A stretch of 64,000 nucleotides of DNA, taken from the NCBI GenBank assembly GCA_913057685.1, contig CAJXOA010000003.1, positions 1 through 64,000 of the forward strand, written 5' to 3'. The stretch's first letter is position 1. The number at the start of each line of letters is the position of its first letter. This document shows positions 50,481 through 50,612 of this stretch, one piece after another. The position numbers and the translations under genes are program-made. The notes under the pieces were generated by a model. That model was not told the origin of the DNA. It ran no database searches and saw only the letters and a program-made list of their open reading frames with translations. The DNA is from an uncultured Trueperaceae bacterium (GTDB lineage: Bacteria > Deinococcota > Deinococci > Deinococcales > Trueperaceae).

Positions 50481-50506
50481 AAAACGCCGCCGACACGGTC
50501 GGCGGC
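50481..50506 (-). terminator. Attenuator terminator of pheST
   Basis: On the minus strand GCCGCCGAC (50506-50498), loop CGT, GTCGGCGGC (50494-50486), then G and TTTT (50484-50481). A perfect 9-bp stem between the leader ORF and pheS. The 5' arm can instead pair with GTCGGCG at 50532-50526. Confidence 0.8.
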
Positions 50507-50510
50507 CGGG

Positions 50511-50530
50511 CGGCGCGTCGGGGCGCGCCG
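50511..50530 (-). promoter_or_regulatory. Pause/protector hairpin in pheST leader
   Basis: CGGCGCG (50530-50524), loop CCCCGA, CGCGCCG (50517-50511). It shares its 5' arm with the antiterminator strand, so it is exclusive with antitermination. Confidence 0.6.
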
Positions 50531-50531
50531 A

Positions 50532-50576
50532 CTAGGTCGGGAACCCGAAGACGGTCCGGGGATCCGGCCTCGTCAC
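50532..50576 (-). CDS. pheST leader peptide (MTRPDPRTVFGFPT)
   Basis: A 14-codon ORF starting at GTG 7 nt after TACCGT, so leaderless. Codons 10 and 12 are Phe (TTC), and the stop TAG lies immediately before the strand that competes with the terminator. By analogy with the E. coli pheM-pheST attenuator, a ribosome stalled for charged tRNA-Phe would allow antitermination. Seen from sequence; function inferred. Confidence 0.75.
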   Translation of the reverse strand: MTRPDPRTVFGFPT

Positions 50577-50583
50577 GTCCGGA

Positions 50584-50612
50584 ACGGTACCGCCGGGCCC
50601 GACCGGCGTCAA
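50584..50612 (-). promoter_or_regulatory. Promoter of pheST leader
   Basis: TTGACG (50612-50607), 17-bp spacer, TACCGT (50589-50584). The TGA within the -35 is the stop codon of the preceding gene. One of the few mRNA promoters here with a good -35. Confidence 0.75.

Follow-up and report, generated by a model that had tools for sequence, protein, structure and literature searches.

The window analysed here, 64,000 nt of contig CAJXOA010000003.1 from an uncultured Trueperaceae bacterium, carries on its minus strand the gene pheS (49452..50438), which encodes the alpha subunit of phenylalanyl-tRNA synthetase (TIGR00468 at 308 bits, above the cut-off; Pfam PF01409 and PF02912) and is followed by pheT. 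Direct reading of the DNA ahead of pheS gives, in order on the minus strand, a −35 element TTGACG (50607..50612), a 17-nt spacer, a −10 element TACCGT (50584..50589), 7 nt, a GTG codon opening a 14-codon ORF, a hairpin termed hairpin II, a 9-bp terminator with TTTT, the Shine–Dalgarno (SD) sequence GGAGGAGGAG and pheS itself. The −35 element is TTGAC-like in most relatives, and its TTGA overlaps the TGA stop of an upstream ORF of 200 aa. The leader ORF (50532..50576, minus strand; MTRPDPRTVFGFPT) runs from GTG at 50576–50574 to TAG at 50534–50532 with 14 sense codons, and has Phe at codons 10 and 12, both written UUC. Hairpin II (50511..50530, minus strand; −13.0 kcal/mol) pairs CGGCGCG (50530–50524) with CGCGCCG (50517–50511) over 7 bp directly 3′ of the stop codon. 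The intrinsic terminator, hairpin III (50481..50506, minus strand; −17.4 kcal/mol), covaries in the family; it consists of the arms GCCGCCGAC (50506–50498) and GTCGGCGGC (50494–50486), G50485 and TTTT (50484–50481), and 42 nt separate it from pheS, whose ATG is at 50438. The strand GUCGGCG (50526..50532, minus strand) is the 5′ strand of a candidate antiterminator, with partners at 50504–50498 or, in part, at 50517–50511. An earlier sequence-only reading had named the promoter, the GTG 7 nt after the −10, the ORF with its two Phe codons, the terminator, and this strand with both of its partners, and all of these are present as described; its transcript start near 50577 shifts to 50576, where the GTG begins.

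Because the −10 element ends 7 nt before the GTG, the transcript would start at or beside the start codon, at about 50576. The leader ORF lacks an SD and has its −10 at the distance expected of a leaderless gene; a −10 adjoining the ORF is a validated leaderless signal in Deinococcus, and such genes are common in Deinococcus-Thermus (PMC12340547). Rfam covariance models run on the window returned no T-box and no phenylalanine leader, and only tmRNA, tRNAs and SRP RNA reached threshold (a tmRNA gene at 16325–16683, a small SRP RNA gene at 22942–23038, and a cluster of three tRNA genes at 7320–7604).

A search of the window's 2.29-Mb genome (G000) for TTGAC-N17..19-TANNNT-N6..8-RTG gave 13 matches, and for the reversed form none. 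Five of these copies open ORFs of at most 40 codons, all five upstream of amino-acid or aminoacyl-tRNA-synthetase genes, namely pheS, ilvB, leuC, an aspS-like gene and leuS, the last four named from their translations; the leuS ORF lacks Leu richness and was not counted as a leader. A scan of both strands of the window (128 kb) for short leaderless ORFs preceded by a −35 gave two matches, against none in the reversed window. Since the reversed controls are empty and the arrangement recurs upstream of pheS in 69 genomes, it exceeds chance.

Conservation of the leader and its Phe codons

We compared the DNA upstream of pheS among genomes of the window's order, in a collection that yields the same 111 genomes for order, class and phylum. 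An equivalent leader is present in 69 genomes from five families, including the window's own Trueperaceae (f1), an Oceanithermus-like family (f4) and a Meiothermus-like family (f5), the latter two names being inferred. The layout is the same throughout: a promoter, a leaderless or nearly leaderless ORF of 7–22 codons containing Phe, then a hairpin or a terminator, with leaders such as MRSPLASESFTR, MRSALASPFTL, MTHPGRPDVPFFFR, MVNALSPFIRFA, MRAYGFFFSY, MAAFFFP and MAGGWFFS. Almost all f1–f3 leaders have a −10 that ends 6–8 nt ahead of the start codon (5 nt in G004; no TANNNT at that place in G001). The distance is 6–12 nt in f4 and f5, where some leaders may have a few nucleotides of 5′ UTR and the terminator U tract is weak or absent in some members. 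The window element is a diverged member, without hairpin I (see below), without the Ser-Pro-Phe (SPF) motif and with Phe as UUC, and it scores only 5.9 bits (E 0.059) against the family covariance model. The leader is absent in the examined genomes of genus g30 (probably Thermus) and in G106, which belongs to the window's genus; G103 (contig C225) keeps the promoter and terminator upstream of pheS and has no leader ORF. We regard G103 and G106 as natural losses of the leader. In G106 (contig C9), a −10-like box lies 9 nt upstream of pheS itself.

Phe is found in every one of the 69 leaders and accounts for 121 of their 698 codons (17%), mostly 2–5 codons upstream of the stop. Across these leaders UUU and UUC stand at 94:27, and high-GC members show a strong bias towards UUU. 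Among 32 Trueperaceae leaders, 29 have UUU as their final Phe codon (the exceptions being G000, G105 and G104), although pheS of the sampled high-GC named members uses almost exclusively UUC. Judged by these comparisons, the leader Phe codon is under selection. The sister of the window species, G105, whose PheS is 98% identical, has the leader MTRTSPLDVAGFVT, of equal length and with the same stop, in which Phe12 is kept and Phe10 has become Ala. Since Phe10 is lost but Phe12 is retained there, Phe12 is the likelier control codon, and the earlier proposal that ribosomes stall at the first Phe codon is not supported in that form; the expectation that the Phe codons would be conserved in relatives held for the leaders at large and for Phe12, but not for Phe10. 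The small number of Phe codons, two in the window species and one in G105, counts against an attenuator.

A nucleotide-level conservation accompanies the Ser-Pro-Phe stretch UUCGCCNUUU in f1–f3 (columns 16–31 of alignment A1, described below): the codon preceding UCG ends in U in 21 of 21 leaders, encoding A, R, L, H, S or P. A search of the leaders for a conserved pairing partner of UUCGCCNUUU found none.

Hairpins of the leader and candidate antiterminators

The RNA structure was assessed in alignment A1, comprising 19 Trueperaceae leaders, with shuffled and slid controls for pairing. Together, hairpins I, II and III are paired in 94.2% of cells with 11 pairs changed on both sides; none of 500 shuffles did as well, and slid controls were 39–47% paired. 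Hairpins II and III thereby show compensatory changes within Trueperaceae, and hairpin II is kept in G105, G107 and G104. Hairpin I (GAAGC...GCUUC; A1 columns 5–20), which is absent in the window species, lies inside the ORF, 4 nt from the predicted 5′ end, and may serve as a polymerase pause hairpin or as a shield of the start codon.

The position of hairpin II follows the Phe codon. In a scan from Phe+5 to Phe+30, which itself imposes the lower bound, with the last Phe (the SPF Phe in f3) as reference, 66 of the 69 leaders have their most stable first hairpin starting 5–10 nt past the Phe codon, whereas counted from the stop codon its start lies anywhere between −17 and +10. Clade medians have a standard deviation of 1.4 nt when measured from Phe, versus 7.1 nt from the stop. 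Hairpin II is thus anchored to the Phe codon and not to the stop codon, which is what one would expect if its formation depended on a ribosome stalled at Phe.

How hairpin II relates to the terminator differs among families. When assigned automatically, overlap includes outward extensions of hairpin II, which would lie beneath a stalled ribosome; we therefore trust only long overlaps that involve the hairpin cores, as in f2 and f5. Of the 16 Meiothermus-like leaders, 15 have a hairpin II that shares sequence with the terminator; in G031, for example, GCCCGCGGGAGA...UCUCUCGUGGGC at −21.6 kcal/mol competes with GUGGGCGGC...GCCGCCCAC at −18.8 kcal/mol. The predicted folds of this family give a clear case of a direct, mutually exclusive switch of the classical kind. 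Most leaders of Trueperaceae and f3 have separate cores for hairpins II and III, and in Trueperaceae these are usually a few nucleotides apart.

For the window species, the sequence-only reading had proposed a three-state switch in which the strand at the stop codon pairs with the 5′ arm of the terminator. The best fold of the hairpin spanning 50532–50498 reaches −18.5 kcal/mol, whereas hairpin II has −13.0 and the terminator −17.4; the 7 bp of the proposed antiterminator, taken alone, have −9.5 kcal/mol. By these energies it could form before the 3′ arm of the terminator is made, and a three-state model is possible in the window species. The equivalent in G105 has 5 bp and −4.9 kcal/mol. We found no conserved antiterminator in Trueperaceae leaders. 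A candidate at family level, pairing the stop-codon UAGCG with CGCUG of the terminator, was rejected: 78% of cells pair, without covariation (174 of 500 shuffles as good). Equilibrium folding with a ribosome footprint of 30 nt masked, in which the automatic choice of terminator was wrong for some leaders including G000, G107 and G108, left the terminator usually unchanged in f1 and f3, forming in most modelled states. Folding of truncated transcripts of the leaders gave effects of no consistent direction; the 5′ arm of the terminator was often more sequestered with the ribosome modelled at the stop codon than with it modelled at Phe. The proposed antiterminator is thus energetically plausible in the window species, but it finds no covariation in the family, and is weak in the sister, and ribosome-footprint folding yields no consistent switch in Trueperaceae; the alignment of the stems in relatives bore out hairpins II and III, whereas the antiterminator counterpart did no better than shuffles.

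Proposed mechanism and alternatives

In our reading, the window element regulates pheST by ribosome-mediated transcription attenuation, with a leader peptide made from a leaderless mRNA; we put the probability of this at about 0.8. The proposal of a leaderless Phe leader peptide and terminator controlling pheST had already been made from the window alone, and it gains support from the conserved Phe, the promoter spacing and the hairpins. Promoter spacing, leader ORF, Phe codon and hairpins II and III are conserved features, around which we infer the start site, the stalling and the sign of the response. RNA polymerase would start at the GTG, as the −10 spacing suggests, and a 70S ribosome would load on the 5′ end of the mRNA and translate the 14 codons. 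With ample Phe-tRNA, the ribosome would reach the stop codon, where it would cover the 5′ arm of hairpin II (as it would in most clades), and hairpin III would terminate transcription upstream of pheS. A ribosome whose A site holds the Phe codon would end approximately at the start of hairpin II, so that on stalling its leading edge would stand at the base of this hairpin and leave it free to form; alternatively, in the window species, the freed strand could pair with the 5′ arm of the terminator, and transcription would continue into pheS. The outcome would probably be that more PheRS is made when phenylalanine-tRNA is short. Besides the few Phe codons, several observations weigh against this reading: the divergence of the window element, the absence of a leader from G106, G103 and the Thermus-like genomes, the mostly separate hairpins II and III of Trueperaceae and f3 with a terminator that folds in most modelled states, and the lack of covariation in the candidate antiterminator.

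The most serious competitor, which we think doubtful though worth keeping in mind, retains leader-peptide attenuation and assigns Trueperaceae a different switch, with a sign or kinetics unlike the trp type. Hairpin II might serve as a pause or as an obstacle to the ribosome at its mRNA entry site; alternatively, a ribosome that has reached the stop codon might release the 3′ arm of hairpin II for pairing with the terminator arm. Such a switch is favoured by the separation of hairpins II and III in most f1 and f3 leaders and by the terminator 5′ arm being often more sequestered in folds with the ribosome at the stop codon than at Phe; however, the pairings look GC-driven and are weak where members are AT-rich (G097 and G074, for example), and the sign would be physiologically odd.

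Two further explanations appear very unlikely to us. Were the element an arrest peptide or an RNA-level sensor, the conserved UUCGCCNUUU (Ser-Pro-Phe) would hold the ribosome or act as an RNA or DNA motif, and the U-ending codon before UCG, constant in 21 f1–f3 leaders despite the varied amino acid, fits this idea; yet WFF or FFF takes the place of SPF in the Meiothermus- and Oceanithermus-like families, whose layout is the same, and the window species itself lacks SPF. Slightly more improbable still is an ordinary terminator of the upstream ORF combined with an internal promoter, the short ORF being incidental. The TGA of the 200-aa ORF does overlap the −35, which makes this terminator the first to follow that gene, but it stands between the promoter and pheS, and no other good promoter is seen in the remaining 42 nt; moreover, relatives with different upstream sequence retain the leader with its Phe codon and hairpin II, and the hairpins covary.

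Known systems and other leaders in Trueperaceae

The pheST (pheM) attenuator of E. coli combines a short Phe leader peptide, conventionally initiated, with a terminator and pheST downstream. The Deinococcota element has in common with it the short Phe leader peptide, the terminator, the downstream pheST and presumed sensing of Phe-tRNA. It differs in that the E. coli leader has more Phe codons, compared with mostly 1–3 near the C-terminus here, and in that conventional initiation is replaced by a leaderless start, with hairpin II anchored to Phe. Gamma-proteobacterial pheST attenuation is cited in PMC1262725, a survey that found no phenylalanine case in Actinobacteria.

Leaderless leader peptides, which the sequence-only reading had thought undescribed, are in fact on record. 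Streptomyces lividans has LeuL2 (leuS), TrpL2 (trpS), ThrL (thrS), TrpL1 (trpE) and IlvL (ilvB) (PMC8079986), which likewise are short leaderless ORFs with control codons upstream of aminoacyl-tRNA synthetase or biosynthesis genes, with a −10 of TAnnnT and downstream hairpins; the amino acids and the phylum differ. Corynebacterium glutamicum and C. diphtheriae have leaderless leader peptides at ilvB (PMC11857589, PMC5784534). In the ilvBNC attenuator of C. glutamicum, the leader start codon lies one nucleotide from +1, and one of three hairpins shields the start region; the start codon is needed for expression, as tested experimentally (PMC11857589; Morbach 2000 cited there). The Trueperaceae leaders resemble it in the predicted start codon at or near +1 and in their three hairpins, the first of which may likewise shield the start codon, whereas that system senses branched-chain amino acids and has experimental tests behind it. 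Mycobacterial polycysteine uORFs, in the account of Canestrari 2020 given by PMC13236596, are also leaderless and sense one amino acid; there, the mode is translation attenuation and the targets are cysteine genes. We found no paper on leaderless leader-peptide attenuators in Deinococcota in the open-access literature. The kind of switch is thus known and looks newly found in this phylum; what seems new is its breadth there.

In most Trueperaceae tested, three further genes are preceded by a leaderless leader, with codons that suit the gene, and a terminator, which speaks for the attenuator reading of the pheST element. At ilvB these occur in 19 of 20 Trueperaceae tested, with a leader rich in branched-chain residues (e.g., MSNVAAPLRIVSTVVVVGLRGSGPAA; G000:C6:31759 region) and, in most, TTGACA-17-TATACT-8-ATG. 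At aspS they occur in 17 of 20 tested, with DDN or EDN in most (in G000 from G000:C14:25432), and we found no aspS leader attenuator of such a kind in the literature. At leuC, 14 of the 18 genomes tested have them, and short fragments account for two of the four misses; the leader has a recurring RRRL core and Leu runs (G000:C9:40375 region). Because the covariance model of the pheST leader matches, at E < 1e-3, nothing but pheS leaders, the ilvB, aspS and leuC leaders are separate elements that share its layout. The window also holds a second leaderless mini-ORF (52606–52577, minus strand; TTTACA-18-TACCCT-6), followed by a hairpin and a T-tailed terminator, upstream of a class V aminotransferase gene (51220–52437); relatives have MSVTARAS, MTRSARAS and MRTVPARAT at this position, with hairpins, and share the core Ala-Arg-Ala.

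Taken together, the comparisons present the window element as a well-supported, conserved leaderless Phe attenuator. We lean towards the broader view that leaderless leader-peptide attenuators serve general amino-acid control in Trueperaceae, and probably in much of Deinococcota, acting on pheST, ilvB, leuC and the AspRS gene, whose leader with its Asp-Asp-Asn motif could read both tRNAs that such an enzyme may charge, and with the pheST hairpin fixed to the Phe codon and not to the stop codon. Leaderless ribosome-mediated attenuation would thereby extend from Actinobacteria to Deinococcota. The 69 natural pheST variants, together with the losses, provide material for studying how RNA polymerase and a 70S ribosome that loads on a bare 5′ end stay in step, and the pheST finding points to further testable leaderless attenuators at ilvB, leuC and aspS.
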